A stretch of 26,456 nucleotides of DNA, from positions 1 through 26,456 of IMG/VR virus record IMGVR_UViG_3300047444_000235; one strand, 5' to 3'. Below the pieces are notes generated by a model. It was not told where the DNA came from. It saw only the letters and a program-made list of their open reading frames with translations, and ran no database searches. Position 1 is the stretch's first letter; each line of letters begins with the position of its first letter. Position numbers and translations under genes: made by a program. Positions 2,434 through 26,090 of the stretch are shown piece after piece. This DNA comes from a virus.

Positions 2434-4253
2434 AATCTCTACATCGGTTTGTTGCGGTCGCTTCGGCGACCATTTTTTTTGCCGGTTCGGCTCTTGCTCA
2501 GAATGCGGGTACGGTTGCCAACCATTCCGTACCAGCAGGGCGAGGGGCAGGCGTAGCGGGCTTTGGGAGCGTAGGGCCGGGAACGACCGGGCAGCTCCTT
2601 TCGGGCGTGACGAGTGCAGATCCCACGTTCCTGAGTGCGGGGACTACTAATCAGGTGCTAACGGGCACCACAGGATCGCAGCCGACTTGGCAGCCGCTTT
2701 TGACCGTTTTCAACGCGATATGCACGGCGTCCCCATCAACCTGCGTAACACTACTGGGTTATGCCAACCCGGCATGGTGGGGTGCTGCTCCTGCGGCATC
2801 TGCAGCCACTAACTCATCCGCAATCACCAGCGCCCTCGCCGCCAGCAAACTCATCTATATGGGCTACGGCGCACCCGGTACCTATACGATCAACGCCGCG
2901 ATTTCGATGGTCTCGAATCAGCGGTTCACTTGCTCTCCGGGCGTTACGATCACTCAGGGTAACGCCGCCAACCTCACCGTTTTCTTCGACTTCTTCAACA
3001 ATGTCCCCGCCAACTCTCGGCTCGACCATTGCACCGTTGACGGCAACCTCGCCGGCAATACCAACGCGAGCACCAACCTCGCTAATGTCAACTCTGGCGC
3101 TTCGCACATTACCATTGATTACAACACCTTCACCGGATCGAGCGGCGGCGATATCGTTGTTGCGAACAGCACCTATGCCATCATCGACCACAACTATTGC
3201 GCCAATTCAATTAACTACTGCGTGGCGATGTTGAACTCTGCGGCTGGCTCTCGGGGATATCACCAAGTCACCAACAATGTCGCTATTGGCCCAATGCTGC
3301 ATCTATTCCAAGTGCAGCAGGTTGACGGCAACAGATTCGCCGATAACTTCGCCATAGGTCAATCGGCCTTGGGTGGTGCCAACAGCACCATGCAGGCGAC
3401 CGTGTCCGGTACGACCGCAACCTGGGTAAGCGGCACGAACTTCTCCGGCATCTCTGCCAACGCCACGGCCAATGTTCTGGTCTGCAACGGCGGTTCCGAG
3501 TACCCCATCACCGCATGGGTTTCCAATACCCAGCTAACCATCAGCAATCCTGGCGCGCTTAACTTCACCAACCAGCCATGTGCAATCGGTAGCGGCGATA
3601 TCTATTCGATCATTAATACTTCGTTCAATCAATTCACAGGCAACTTCTCCTCGGGTGGTGTTACCGGCGCTTTTGTTCTCGCCAACCAAGGTGGGGCTAT
3701 TGCCTCTACCGAAAACTCATTCCAGAATGATTTCGTCGGCAATCACATCGAGAATGCCGGTAACTTCTGCTTTGCTCTTGAAGCCGGCACTGCTACCGGC
3801 AGCCCCCATGTGGATCAAACCACCATCACCGGAAATAGCTGCCTGTCTCCGGGGCGGTCTGGTGCGGCCGGGGCCAATCCTGCCGGTGTTCAACTCTTTG
3901 CCGCAGCGGGCTTGATGAACACGGTTGTAATCACCGGCAATTCATTTTGGGATCCGCAAGGCGTTGCCAATGGTGCGTGGCTCACTGGATCGGGCACCAC
4001 CGCTGTCGTCAATCTCGTACTTTCTGGCAATGTCATAAAAGACTTCGCCAACGGTTTGAACTCTCTCAATATCCCCATCTTCTCGAACTTGCCTAGCATT
4101 CGGGGGCAGGATGCTTTCATCATCGATGGCCTTGCAGCCAGTTGCGGCGACTCCGCCTGCACTACCTTTGGAACAACCGTTACCGGAGGCGGCGGCGCCC
4201 TGAAACTGAAAGTATGGCACAACGGCACTAATTACACACTGACTGGCAAATAA
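2430..4253 (+). CDS. Tail-spike-like right-handed beta-helix protein with apparent signal peptide
   Basis: A 607-residue protein coupled by ATGA to the previous gene. Residues 1-23 form a convincing Sec signal peptide (MKSLHR, hydrophobic FVAVASATIFFAG, SALA then Gln). Residues ~25-90 are Gly/Thr repeats (GTTGQLLSG, GTTNQVLTG) seen in fibre shafts. From ~110 onward the Asn/Ser/Gly-rich pattern (TCSPGVTITQGNAANLTV, LDHCTVDGNLAGNT, HITIDYNTFTG, VITGNSFWD, NLVLSGNVIKDF) is characteristic of a right-handed parallel beta helix of the pectate-lyase type, as in phage tail spikes. Catalytic residues cannot be recognised. Probable role: recognising or degrading a surface polysaccharide. Confidence 0.82.
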   Translation: MKSLHRFVAVASATIFFAGSALAQNAGTVANHSVPAGRGAGVAGFGSVGPGTTGQLLSGVTSADPTFLSAGTTNQVLTGTTGSQPTWQPLLTVFNAICTASPSTCVTLLGYANPAWWGAAPAASAATNSSAITSALAASKLIYMGYGAPGTYTINAAISMVSNQRFTCSPGVTITQGNAANLTVFFDFFNNVPANSRLDHCTVDGNLAGNTNASTNLANVNSGASHITIDYNTFTGSSGGDIVVANSTYAIIDHNYCANSINYCVAMLNSAAGSRGYHQVTNNVAIGPMLHLFQVQQVDGNRFADNFAIGQSALGGANSTMQATVSGTTATWVSGTNFSGISANATANVLVCNGGSEYPITAWVSNTQLTISNPGALNFTNQPCAIGSGDIYSIINTSFNQFTGNFSSGGVTGAFVLANQGGAIASTENSFQNDFVGNHIENAGNFCFALEAGTATGSPHVDQTTITGNSCLSPGRSGAAGANPAGVQLFAAAGLMNTVVITGNSFWDPQGVANGAWLTGSGTTAVVNLVLSGNVIKDFANGLNSLNIPIFSNLPSIRGQDAFIIDGLAASCGDSACTTFGTTVTGGGGALKLKVWHNGTNYTLTGK

Positions 4254-4255
4254 GG

Positions 4256-4858
4256 ATGAAAACGTCAGCCGATGGCCGCGCGTTCATAGAGGCGTTTGAG
4301 GGCAAGTTTCTTCACACTTACGATGACGGAACGGGAGTCCTAACAATAGGTTACGGGCACACGACGATGGCCGGGCCGCCCGCTGTTTATCGTGGACAAA
4401 CCATTACCGACGCGGAGTGCGATGCAATACTTGCCGCCGATCTCGGCAATGTCGAAGCCAATGTTTCCAAATGCATCACCGTTTCGATGGGGCAAAGCCA
4501 GTTCGACGCGCTTGTCTCGTTCGACTTCAACACCGGGGCACTCGCCAAGTCGTCTATCGCGGCCAAGATCAACGCGGGCAACCACGACGCGGCCATGTCA
4601 ACGCTGCTGATGTACGACCATGCAGGCGGCCGGCAGATGGATGGATTAACCCGCCGCAGGCAAGCAGAGCGGCTGATGTTCGTCGGTCAAGTTCAGCAAG
4701 CCATGCGGTTGGCTGGCGCTCACGCTACCGCACCAAGCAAGCCGATGCCGCAGGCCCCTACACGGCCTCCGATTATGAAGCCTATCGACGTTCCGCAGCC
4801 CGTTACCGGATGGGCTGCGTTATTTGCGTTCATCCTCTCACTGTTCAAAGGAAAATAA
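4256..4858 (+). CDS. Endolysin, GH24 (T4-type) lysozyme with C-terminal membrane segment
   Basis: A 200-residue protein beginning 2 bases after the tail-spike stop. GH24 lysozymes cleave the peptidoglycan glycan strand. The triad E-8-D-5-T is present as Glu15, Asp24 and Thr30 in EAFEGKFLHTYDDG followed by LTIGYGHT. Helical features such as QFDALVSFDFNTGAL and TRRRQAERLMF are standard for the family. The catalytic domain ends near residue 155. A Pro-rich linker (about 158-180) then leads to a hydrophobic end, VTGWAALFAFILSLF, capped by GK-K, which could insert in a membrane. No N-terminal signal is seen. Small membrane proteins follow, completing a lysis cassette. Confidence 0.93.
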   Translation: MKTSADGRAFIEAFEGKFLHTYDDGTGVLTIGYGHTTMAGPPAVYRGQTITDAECDAILAADLGNVEANVSKCITVSMGQSQFDALVSFDFNTGALAKSSIAAKINAGNHDAAMSTLLMYDHAGGRQMDGLTRRRQAERLMFVGQVQQAMRLAGAHATAPSKPMPQAPTRPPIMKPIDVPQPVTGWAALFAFILSLFKGK

Positions 4859-16797: not shown

Positions 16798-17109
16798 CTA
16801 GTCGTCCGTTTTTCTGAGAAGTTCAGAAATATCGGGGGCCTGGACCATCCAGCCACGCTTACGAAATTCTGCCAACGACCCTTCGGCGATCGTGCATGCG
16901 CGATCTACAACTTCAGACGGGGTAGAATTGCGGATGACTGCGCGACCAGCGGAATCTTCTCCCTCTACTTCGCCAGCGATCATGCCCCAGCGTTCTATGA
17001 GGGCCATTGCGAAGCGCGCCTCTGTATTTGGAACTTCGGTATCGTGGACAGTAAACTTTTTAATGGAATTACGTCCATACTCTTCGGTAACGGCAACTTG
17101 CGTAGTCAT
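16798..17109 (-). CDS. Conserved phage protein, unknown
   Basis: A 103-residue product from ATG 17109 with ribosome site aagga. It has a beta-rich start (TTQVAVTEEYGRNSIKKFTV) and helical end (VVDRACTIAEGSLAEFRKRG, ISELLRKTDD). It overlaps the DUF5131 gene by ATGA and stops 2 bases before the winged-helix gene. No family recognised. Confidence 0.7.
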   Translation of the reverse strand: MTTQVAVTEEYGRNSIKKFTVHDTEVPNTEARFAMALIERWGMIAGEVEGEDSAGRAVIRNSTPSEVVDRACTIAEGSLAEFRKRGWMVQAPDISELLRKTDD

Positions 17110-17891
17110 GTGATTTTCCTTTCAGGGGTGGGTAAATGGTCATTCAACGGGAGCGGGGATGGTGGAAGCTGGCGCACCAGCAAATCGTCGGGGATCGGCT
17201 TCTTGCCGGTCATCTGCTTCATGAAGAAGGCGCGATTGAACCGGGCGCTCCCGTCCCGAAGATCGCGCGCCCATTGCGGGTTCATCTCGCGAGCGCCCCG
17301 ACCACTCTCGCCGCCGCAAATGATCCAGTCCGGTGCGTGCTTATCGAGAATGATCGGCCCGAGCATCGGCTCGAAGCTGCCAAACGTGAACAGCGGCCGG
17401 CATGTCAACATTGCGTCCCATAGCTTCATGCGGTCGCGGTCGTATTCTTCCTGGTTCGCAATGGTGGCGCCGAGCGCCGCATTTTCTGGCAGCAGCGGGT
17501 TACCGTGAAATGGGTCGGTCATCTTGTTGACGTTGCCAATCCGCTTCGTCAGCAATAGCCAGACGAGCGACGGCGTTTCCTCGATCAGCTTAAATAGATC
17601 CCGGCGCCATATCGGGTCCACTTCGTTATCGAACACGTCGGCGAGCGAAGCGCAGAATACAAACGGGCGCGCGCCGGCTGCCTGCGCCTGCTTGTTCCAG
17701 CGCCGCGGCTGTTGCCAATTCGCCGCCGATGTCCGTGACCTATCTTCGCCAGCACCCCACCGCACGCGGCCGTAGCGCGTGTCCATCATGGCTTCCGCAT
17801 AGCAATGGTCGCAGGCTGGCGAGACCTTCGTGCAGCCAATCCACGGATTAAAGGTGTGATCCGTCCACTCGATTTTGCTGTTCTCAGCCAT
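17106..17891 (-). CDS. DUF5131 (phage Gp37/Gp68) family protein, Fe-S type
   Basis: A 261-residue product beginning MAENSKIEWTDHTFNPW, the signature opening of the family. Cys20, Cys27 and Cys30 in GCTKVSPACDHCYAE form a radical-SAM-like iron-sulphur motif. Downstream conserved pieces are FVFCASLADVFDNEVD, WLLLTKRIGNV and WIICGGESGRGAREM. The family occurs in many phages and mobile elements, and its biochemical role is not established to my knowledge. Coupled by ATGA to the following gene. Confidence 0.9.
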   Translation of the reverse strand: MAENSKIEWTDHTFNPWIGCTKVSPACDHCYAEAMMDTRYGRVRWGAGEDRSRTSAANWQQPRRWNKQAQAAGARPFVFCASLADVFDNEVDPIWRRDLFKLIEETPSLVWLLLTKRIGNVNKMTDPFHGNPLLPENAALGATIANQEEYDRDRMKLWDAMLTCRPLFTFGSFEPMLGPIILDKHAPDWIICGGESGRGAREMNPQWARDLRDGSARFNRAFFMKQMTGKKPIPDDLLVRQLPPSPLPLNDHLPTPERKIT

Positions 17892-23504: not shown

Positions 23505-23534
23505 CACGTTGCCAGATTGGAAACAGGTAGTCAA
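23505..23534 (-). promoter_or_regulatory. Leftward early promoter (P_L-like)
   Basis: On the minus strand a -35-like TTGACT (23529-23534) is followed 18 bases later by a weak -10 (AACGTG, 23505-23510). Operator O1 lies between them. The distance from TTGAC to the operator core equals that of the rightward promoter (TTGACA, 4 bases, GTTTCC), supporting a matched pair. Confidence 0.55.
23508..23525 (+). promoter_or_regulatory. Operator O1 (gttgccagattggaaaca)
   Basis: First of two same-orientation copies of the 18-bp motif GTTGCCA-n4-GGAAACA. It overlaps the -10/-35 spacer of the leftward promoter. The 17-mer is identical to operator O3 in reverse. Confidence 0.75.
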
Positions 23535-23541
23535 TAGGAAA

Positions 23542-23559
23542 GTTGCCAAACTGGAAACA
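23542..23559 (+). promoter_or_regulatory. Operator O2 (gttgccaaactggaaaca)
   Basis: Second copy, differing from O1 at two of 18 bases (AAC for GAT in the centre), starting exactly 34 bases after O1. Confidence 0.7.
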
Positions 23560-23570
23560 ATAATTTTGGG

Positions 23571-23600
23571 CAAATAAAAACCCGCCGTAATCAGCGGGTT
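23571..23600 (-). terminator. Intrinsic terminator after the repressor
   Basis: On the minus strand AACCCGC-TGATTACG-GCGGGTT forms a 7-bp stem (arms 23594-23600 and 23579-23585), followed by TTTTTATTTG. It lies just downstream of the repressor stop and separates repressor transcription from the leftward promoter. Confidence 0.85.
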
Positions 23601-23618
23601 AGGTCCATTTCGGAACTT

Positions 23619-23937
23619 TTATCCTGCCTTCTGGAACATCCGGCGCAGGATATCGGCCGCCATTTCCCGTTGTTCGGGGGTGGCGTCCTCCACAATGGCA
23701 TCTAGGGACGGCGTGCCAGGAGGGTAGAGAAGCTCGCTGGGGTGCATGTCGAGGGCGTGGGCTATCTTGGAGGATCTTGCCCGGATCAAGCCTGTTCTGC
23801 TCTGTGTAGCGCTTCCAGACGGCCTCCCGGCCAATTCCAAGCCGCCCGGCCATCTGCTCGTCGGAAACCCCGAGCCGCTCCATATGCTCTTTGATGTAGT
23901 AATGGAGGCGCGCGCCCTTGCGTATCTTTGTTACCAT
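23619..23937 (-). pseudogene. Immunity repressor (HTH, CI-like small type), apparently frameshifted
   Basis: The frame from ATG 23937 reads a helix-turn-helix domain (MVTKIRKGARLHYYIKEHME, then VSDEQMAGRLGIGREAVWKR) to NRLDPGKIL, then turns into nonsense. The sensible continuation, KIAHALDMHPSELLYPPGTP and then REMAADILRRMFQKAG ending at 23619, is in the next frame. One extra base at the ggagg run (about 23769-23773) explains it; without that base the protein is 105 residues. There is no peptidase domain, so it is a small CI-like repressor. An operator overlaps its start codon and no ribosome site is seen (possibly leaderless). A sequencing error or programmed shift is also possible. Confidence 0.75.
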
Positions 23938-23947
23938 GCCGGAAACT
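23930..23947 (+). promoter_or_regulatory. Operator O5 overlapping the repressor start codon
   Basis: gttaccatgccggaaact matches the O1 pattern at 12 to 14 of 18 bases and covers the repressor ATG (23935-23937) and part of its -10. This would allow repressor to turn down its own gene. Confidence 0.55.
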
Positions 23948-23950
23948 ATA
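23945..23950 (-). promoter_or_regulatory. Repressor promoter -10 (P_RM-like)
   Basis: TATAGT on the minus strand is 5 of 6 to consensus and places +1 at about 23938, one base before the ATG. The -35 position (about 23968-23973, GAGACT) is poor, as expected for a promoter needing activation from O4. Confidence 0.5.
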
Positions 23951-23972
23951 TGGGGGGAGGGGCCAAGAGTCT

Positions 23973-23990
23973 CTTTCCAAGTCGGCAACA
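23973..23990 (-). promoter_or_regulatory. Operator O4 (reverse orientation)
   Basis: ctttccaagtcggcaaca is a degenerate reverse-orientation copy of the motif. Its start is exactly 34 bases before that of O3, the same spacing as O1/O2. Its centre is about 43 bases from the predicted repressor transcription start, a lambda-OR2-like activating position. Confidence 0.6.
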
Positions 23991-23996
23991 AGACGC

Positions 23997-24026
23997 TTGA
24001 CATCACGTTTCCAATCTGGCAACAAT
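23997..24026 (+). promoter_or_regulatory. Rightward promoter (P_R-like)
   Basis: Perfect -35 TTGACA (23997-24002), 18 bases, -10 AACAAT (24021-24026). Operator O3 fills the spacer. The predicted +1 falls on the A of the Cro-like ATG (24033). Confidence 0.65.
24007..24024 (-). promoter_or_regulatory. Operator O3 (gtttccaatctggcaaca)
   Basis: Its reverse complement shares an identical 17-mer with O1. It sits between -35 and -10 of the rightward promoter, so bound repressor or Cro would block transcription. Confidence 0.75.
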
Positions 24027-24517: not shown

Positions 24518-24669
24518 TCCCAAACCCCGTGTTTTTATTGGTTAGGGAAACAGCAGAACACAACTTCAGCGAACAAAAAACAAAATTCGCAATTGGTACA
24601 TGACAATTCGATTCCGCGCCGCATCGTGTTCCATTTTGGGAACGCGCCCGTAAATCTACGGAGCGCCGC
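24518..24669. other. Non-coding stretch with repeats
   Basis: A 152-base gap with no supported gene. It holds the decamer ttagggaaac (24542-24551, repeated at 25060-25069), an A-rich segment (about 24573-24590), and an inverted repeat gttcc-attttg-ggaac (24628-24643). A weak minus-strand promoter (TTGTGT, 17 bases, CAATAA) might serve the gene at 24254-24517. Confidence 0.4.
24628..24643. repeat. Inverted repeat gttcc-n6-ggaac
   Basis: A 5-bp perfect inverted repeat with six-base spacer, of operator size and unlike the O1-O5 motif. It may bind a different regulator. Confidence 0.4.
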
Positions 24670-25532: not shown

Positions 25533-25583
25533 GATTTTTCGTAGCTAACCCGCGCATCACACTAGCGGGCAACATTGGAGAAA

Positions 25584-26090
25584 ATGGGGCAAATGGCTGT
25601 ACGTTGGAATGAAGAACTGTGCGCGCGCCTGAAATCTCTCTGGCCCGATCACAGCGCGGCGGCAATCTCCGCGATCTTTCGTAGCGAGGGGTTTGACTTT
25701 TCCCGCAACGCCGTGATCGGGATCGCTCACCGCCTGGAACTCACGAGCAAGCTCCAGGTCAGGCTATCAAGACCTCCGACCGTCAAGAAGGGCGTCTTTC
25801 AGCACGTTGTCCGCAAAGCCAATAGGGTCCGGCTTCGCGTCGTCAACTCCGGCGGCAACCAATCCGCTCTGACCTTCAAAACCATCGACGCGAGATTGCC
25901 AGCATTGCGCTGCGTCGAAATCGCACTCCGCAACATCCCGTTGGTTGACCTTGAACCAAACGATTGCCGGTTTATCGCTGGCGATGACTACCTTTATTGC
26001 GGGCATCCTCAGAAGGCCGGTTCGAGCTACTGCCCCGCGCATGATTCCCTGGTTTGGATTCCAGCTAATCCCCGGAGGGCAGCGGCATGA
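25584..26090 (+). CDS. GcrA-family regulator
   Basis: A 168-residue product from ATG 25584 (site ggaga; TTG 25575 and ATG 25593 are alternatives). The N-terminal domain WNEELCARLKSLWPDHSAAA, then SAIFRSEGFDFSRNAVIGIA and HRLEL matches GcrA, which in Caulobacter binds RNA polymerase sigma70 and methylated GANTC promoters. The C-terminal CRFIAGDDYLYCGHP and AGSSYCPAHD carries the family's Cys/His tail. In a phage it may redirect host cell-cycle transcription. A hairpin (cccgc/gcggg) precedes the gene. Confidence 0.88.
   Translation: MGQMAVRWNEELCARLKSLWPDHSAAAISAIFRSEGFDFSRNAVIGIAHRLELTSKLQVRLSRPPTVKKGVFQHVVRKANRVRLRVVNSGGNQSALTFKTIDARLPALRCVEIALRNIPLVDLEPNDCRFIAGDDYLYCGHPQKAGSSYCPAHDSLVWIPANPRRAAA

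Follow-up and report, generated by a model that had tools for sequence, protein, structure and literature searches.

A region with five operator sites in the genome of a soil-type temperate phage very probably constitutes a working lambda-like lysis/lysogeny switch with its own spacing rules, as judged from its sequence and from the recurrence of its layout in other phages. The genome, hereafter the window, comprises 26,456 bases and forms a complete viral record. Among bistable circuits the lambda switch is the textbook case, and few others have been worked out beyond the enterobacterial and Gram-positive phages. In the window two operator groups, one for each of two outward-directed early promoters, flank a repressor gene (Table 1), and we hold with high confidence that this would be an immunity region built on the PL-OL-cI-OR-cro logic of lambda, with a small repressor devoid of a LexA-type domain and acting by the mechanism proposed below. 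The recurrence of the layout, the promoter offsets and the gene order in 17 other contigs supports the lambda-like OL/OR interpretation offered in the original prediction as the best reading of the region.

Table 1. Features of the immunity region, in window coordinates
Feature	Coordinates	Strand	Remarks
First leftward gene, 70 aa	23267..23479	-	No family match
O1 (OL1-like)	23508..23524	+	GTTGCCAGATTGGAAAC; 4 bp past the PL -35; slot kept in 17 other contigs
PL -35 TTGACT	23529..23534	-	Between O1 and O2; exactly 4 bp from O1
O2 (OL2-like)	23542..23558	+	GTTGCCAAACTGGAAAC; 34 bp from O1
Intrinsic terminator	23579..23600	-	After the repressor gene, directly before O2
Repressor gene	23599..23937	-	Small HTH; frame as read runs to 112 aa
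Frame with conserved repressor C-terminal part	23619..23840	-	71% identical to L031 over 48 residues
O5 (OR3-like)	23930..23946	+	GTTACCATGCCGGAAAC; covers the repressor ATG, codes M-V-T
Predicted PRM-like -10 TATAGT	23945..23950	-	7 nt before the repressor ATG; similar hexamer kept in relatives
O4 (OR2-like)	23973..23989	-	+ strand CTTTCCAAGTCGGCAAC; centre 44 bp upstream of the repressor ATG
PR -35 TTGACA	23997..24002	+	Exactly 4 bp before O3
O3 (OR1-like)	24007..24023	-	+ strand GTTTCCAATCTGGCAAC; 4 bp after the PR -35
Predicted PR -10 AACAAT	24021..24026	+	6 nt before the Cro-like ATG
Cro-like HTH protein, 75 aa	24033..24260	+	HTH_3, E=4.8e-12

The operator unit spans 17 bp and is nearly palindromic, GTTGCC-N5-GGAAAC, its general form being GTTKCC-N5-GGMAAC. 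O1, O2 and O3 each combine one GTTGCC arm with one GTTTCC arm; O4 and O5 each have one arm base off this pattern. All five copies proposed earlier were confirmed in position, including the placement of O5 over the repressor start, and the motif length of 18 bp given for them needs correction, the 18th base (A) lying outside the 17-bp dyad. Start-to-start spacings are 34 bp for both O1-O2 and O4-O3, as had been claimed for these mutually inverted pairs, and 43 bp for O5-O4. O1/O2 and O4/O3 are in effect two inverted copies of a single promoter-operator module and correspond to the inverted repeat I1 (50 nt, 74% complementarity). The window contains three OR and two OL operators, and the centre of O4 (23981) lies 44 bp upstream of the first base of the repressor start codon (23937).

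A search with the 18-bp motif allowing up to three mismatches recovered 11 matches against 2.1 expected, a number reached in none of 100 shuffles. An independent matrix, built solely from the five sites of the related contig L002 and run over all 17-mers of the window, returned O3, O2, O1, O4 and O5 as its top five (scores 23.3, 23.3, 23.3, 18.5 and 15.9), with the sixth-best match at 14.3 and the best match in 40 shuffled windows at 17.5. O4 and O5 are weak singly, overlapping the shuffled maximum, and are convincing by position: the joint score of the five sites is 104.5 versus a null of 62.6 (s.d. 2.4, maximum 76 in 300 shuffles), i.e. 17 s.d. above it. The sixth-best operator-like match, a palindrome at 24627-24643 (TGTTCCATTTTGGGAAC), was considered as a further operator and rejected: its arm is shifted by one, its score is in the noise, and it has no counterpart among the top matches of L002. 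It is probably not a site.

The same layout, comprising in order an OL pair by the leftward early promoter, a small repressor gene, O5 on its start codon, O4 and O3, recurs in at least 17 other viral contigs from uncultured phages, giving 18 loci with the window. The search of related phages that had been suggested as a check thus recovered not just equally spaced sites, but the five-site layout together with its promoter offsets and gene order. Four of these contigs (L002, L003, L004 and L008) came from Cro similarity alone; further relatives came from a DNA scan for paired GTTGCC sites, which constrains the spacing of the pair (31-37 bp) and leaves the second pair, O5 and the gene starts unconstrained. 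An unconstrained site listing already gives the 34/43/34 pattern. L002 has the same five sites as the window, and in L003, L004 and L008 the layout is kept with another half-site sequence, GTRACC. Across the 18 loci the O1-O2 spacing is 33 (two loci), 34 (11) or 35 bp (five), O4-O3 is 34 (nine), 35 (seven) or 36 bp (two), and O5-O4 ranges from 41 to 45 bp. The O4 centre is 42-45 bp from the repressor ATG (the start in L034 being placed by hand at its O5) and the end of O3 is 9-11 bp from the cro ATG, whereas the O1-O3 distance is not fixed (442 to 1019 bp). L009 and L010 were left out of the 18; they keep most of the layout and have GTRACC-type sites (2347-2406 and 2453-2514 respectively), with the OL pair 43-45 bp apart instead of 34.

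Among the phages sharing the layout the repressors drop to about 15-30% identity. The half-sites of the operators vary in step with the repressor (Mantel r = 0.39, p = 0.0002, in a test confounded by ancestry), and operator divergence shows no such relation to the Cro-like protein (r = 0.07, p = 0.27, with the same confounding). Given that at least 18 phages keep the layout while their repressors diverge and some operators change, selection appears to hold the spacing rather than the sequence.

The promoter-proximal operators O1 and O3 sit between the -35 and -10 elements of PL and PR, both of which have weak -10 elements, and the equal 4-base gap from each TTGAC to its operator that had been noted earlier is indeed 4 bp at both promoters. 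In spacers read by eye, this gap is 4 bp at PR in 17 of the 18 loci (5 in L019) and at PL in 14 (3 in L003, L008 and L021; 5 in L019); some loci show TTGC instead of TTGAC at the -35. The weak PL -10 of the window (CAACGT/AACGTG) was missed by a consensus promoter scan, which only PR passes. The repressor promoter has a -10 and no good -35. In most loci a TATAGT-like hexamer ends 6-7 nt ahead of the repressor ATG; across the loci, the PR -10 stands 6-8 nt ahead of the cro ATG. As these -10 elements lie so near both ATGs, leaderless mRNAs are predicted for the repressor and the Cro-like gene.

A blind scan with a pattern representing the PR core alone (TTGAC, O3 and ATG) retrieved eight new contigs. 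All seven that extend far enough to either side have O4 and the OL pair at the predicted places (each p <= 0.02 against shuffled sequence); the eighth, L086, had too little flank and was left out. The OR pattern is therefore of practical use as a signature, having led to new phages and foretold where their OL sites lie. Of the seven, L083 has a clear O5 and L082 and L085 have a weak one, while L079, L080, L081 and L084 lack it, indicating that not every such locus carries this autoregulatory site. In L081 and L084 the repressor start, too, is absent from its expected position.

The repressors of the 17 intact relatives are 103-119 residues long and contain only an HTH domain, with no S24 match in any of them. 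Since they have no LexA/S24 domain, SOS cleavage of the lambda type is not expected. The model of the L031 repressor (mean pLDDT 74.6; fold predicted with moderate confidence) comprises an HTH bundle and a low-confidence C-terminal helix. Profile searches weakly matched the structures of the P22 C2, 434 and lambda repressors (E 0.0006-0.008), and a Foldseek search gave weak matches, none with E <= 0.001. Thus, the modelled HTH fold and the profile weakly resemble the DNA-binding domains of the P22, 434 and lambda repressors. O5 fixes the first residues of the repressor as M-V/A-T in nearly all loci. Over its first 55 codons the window repressor shares 80% identity with that of L031, after which the frame is lost; intact homologues are present in L002, L027, L023 and L031. 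As assembled, the window repressor is without its normal C-terminal part, which may reflect an assembly error or a clear mutant.

Integrase and SSB are encoded leftward in the window, and the integrase shares 61% identity with its counterpart in the Bradyrhizobium phage ppBjS10J-1 (OP596615). This kinship, together with a GcrA-like cell-cycle regulator at 25575-26090 (+; Pfam E 3.9e-17), suggests an alphaproteobacterial host, probably one that is Bradyrhizobium-like. ppBjS10J-1 likewise has divergent small HTH genes, but its immunity region and palindromes are of another kind: CCTACC-type palindromes lie at 3649-4273 of this record (L018), and the five-site layout was not seen there by eye. 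The shared integrase beside a different immunity region would be a sign of immunity-module exchange. The window additionally codes for a DUF5131/phrog_2045 protein at 17106-17891 (-; E 1e-62 in Pfam and 2e-79 in PHROGs).

Measured from the lambda record NC_001416, the OR1-OR2 and OR2-OR3 spacings are 24 and 23 bp, the -35 elements stand 4 bp from OR1 and from OL1, the OR2 and OR3 centres are 42 and 19 bp from the cI ATG, and the end of OR1 is 27 bp from the cro ATG. The window shares with lambda the gene order, 17-bp operators, an HTH repressor with a Cro counterpart, the 4-bp offset at both promoters and nearly the same distance from the middle OR operator to the repressor start (44 versus 42 bp). 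It differs in the 34/43-bp operator spacing, in having two rather than three OL sites, in the location of O5 on the start codon (1 bp), and in the 10 bp that separate O3 from the start of its Cro-like gene, which is predicted to be leaderless. Unlike CI, repressors of the window type have no LexA/S24 domain and no recognised similarity to cI beyond the HTH. The spacings of 34 and 43 bp could be read as those of lambda lengthened by 10 and 20 bp, or roughly one and two turns of the helix, so that the sites would keep much the same relative face.

The immB regions of the telomere phages N15 and phiKO2 also have five operators (three OR and two OL) and a prophage repressor without a RecA cleavage site or catalytic Ser/Lys (PMC4997575). 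Their operators are, however, 16-bp TA-N10-TA sequences, and their OL controls the plasmid replication gene repA (PMC4997575), where the window has the 70-residue protein, and encodes an integrase. The Cro of phiKO2 binds only OR3 (PMC4997575), so operators laid out as in lambda are not necessarily used by Cro as they are in lambda. In PY54, RACE showed the cI and cro mRNAs to be leaderless (PMC4488713), as is predicted for the window, but a single operator, OR3, is recognised there (PMC4488713). Mycobacteriophage BPs resembles the window in its small repressor (gp33-103, 103 residues) and in operators placed between the PR -35 and -10 and by the repressor gene; it differs in its half-site pairs with a variable spacer, genome-dispersed sites and integration-dependent immunity (PMC4557955).

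We propose that dimers of the leftward HTH protein would bind O1 and O3 between the -35 and -10 elements and, paired with O2 and O4 beyond each -35, would turn off PL and PR. Bound at O4, 44 bp upstream of the leaderless start, the repressor might touch RNA polymerase and raise its own weak promoter, comparable to lambda OR2. At high level, the repressor or the Cro-like protein at O5 would block the repressor promoter and the start codon, in the manner of OR3, and competition by the Cro-like protein for the same sites would fix the lytic state. As lambda-type self-cleavage of the repressor is not expected, induction should need another route, be it an antirepressor, proteolysis or some further signal. 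The firmest part of this scheme is that the repressor would silence PL and PR. Of the earlier proposal that O4 occupies an activating position, the distance stood, being close to that of lambda in all 18 loci; activation itself we infer from this conserved O4-ATG distance and the want of a good -35. Least certain is whether the Cro-like protein would use the repressor's sites, given that operator divergence follows the repressor and that phiKO2 Cro binds OR3 alone.

The main alternative is a simpler circuit, in which the repressor alone uses all five sites, the Cro-like protein acts at O5 only and O4 activates nothing. This is a real possibility, if on the doubtful side. It agrees with the tracking of operators by the repressor and not by the Cro-like protein, with the precedents of phiKO2 (PMC4997575) and PY54, whose Cro binds a single site (PMC4488713), and with the 34-bp pair at OL, where no repressor promoter adjoins and repression alone explains the pair spacing. 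Yet the O4-ATG distance is held at 42-45 bp, near lambda's 42, a repressor promoter with a -10 and no good -35 fits activation, and ancestry confounds the Mantel test.

A swap of roles, with the rightward 75-residue protein as lysogenic repressor and the leftward one as Cro-like, is very unlikely. Neither of these small HTH proteins has a peptidase domain and HTH_3 is matched better by the rightward one, but it is the leftward gene that lies between OL and OR with its own terminator and a PRM-like O4/O5 arrangement. The rightward gene, like lambda cro, heads an operon that in L002 reaches genes for DnaA-C and RusA proteins, with a Rad52-type recombinase encoded leftward. That the sites are chance palindromes or serve a host regulator is scarcely credible: the single scores of O4 and O5 do overlap the shuffled maximum, but the joint layout stands at z = 17, recurs in 17 other contigs and yielded confirmed blind predictions.

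The lambda-like switch is already known as a kind; the combination and the fixed 34/43 geometry appear to be new, and a literature search for this layout, with subscription papers outside its reach, surfaced no report. More tentatively, at a little short of an even chance, these phages might form a distinct widespread lineage defined by the 34/43-bp spacings, a small non-cleavable repressor, leaderless transcripts, O5 in the start codon, cooperative pairing across the -35, activation from O4 and SOS-independent induction. With this layout one can ask what distances are required in a CI-type switch, and by what means a dual-operator switch operates with a repressor that is neither cleavable nor C-terminally cooperative.

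Searches of phage records with the window DNA and with an intact repressor gave no match, and those with the Cro-like protein gave weak HTH matches and nothing better. Scans of genome contigs recovered no relative with the Cro alignment and mostly scattered chance pairs with the DNA pattern; the repressor alignment (A3) was too divergent to serve in the locus scan. L017 has no region comparable to the five-site layout, and L011 and L012, considered as relatives, proved to be different HTH loci. In Vineibacter terrae (L043, 5988-7480) GTTGCC-N5-GGCAAC sites form a related arrangement but with different spacing, and to the left of its right-hand sites lies an ORF that seems longer than those of the small repressors. 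As a pattern search over 76 genomes of the order of V. terrae also gave no match, the exact layout is seen in no named host. A different arrangement is found at 3115-3236 of L037, where four to six GTTGCCAAATCGGCAAC-type palindromes stand in tandem at steps of 18-24 bp.
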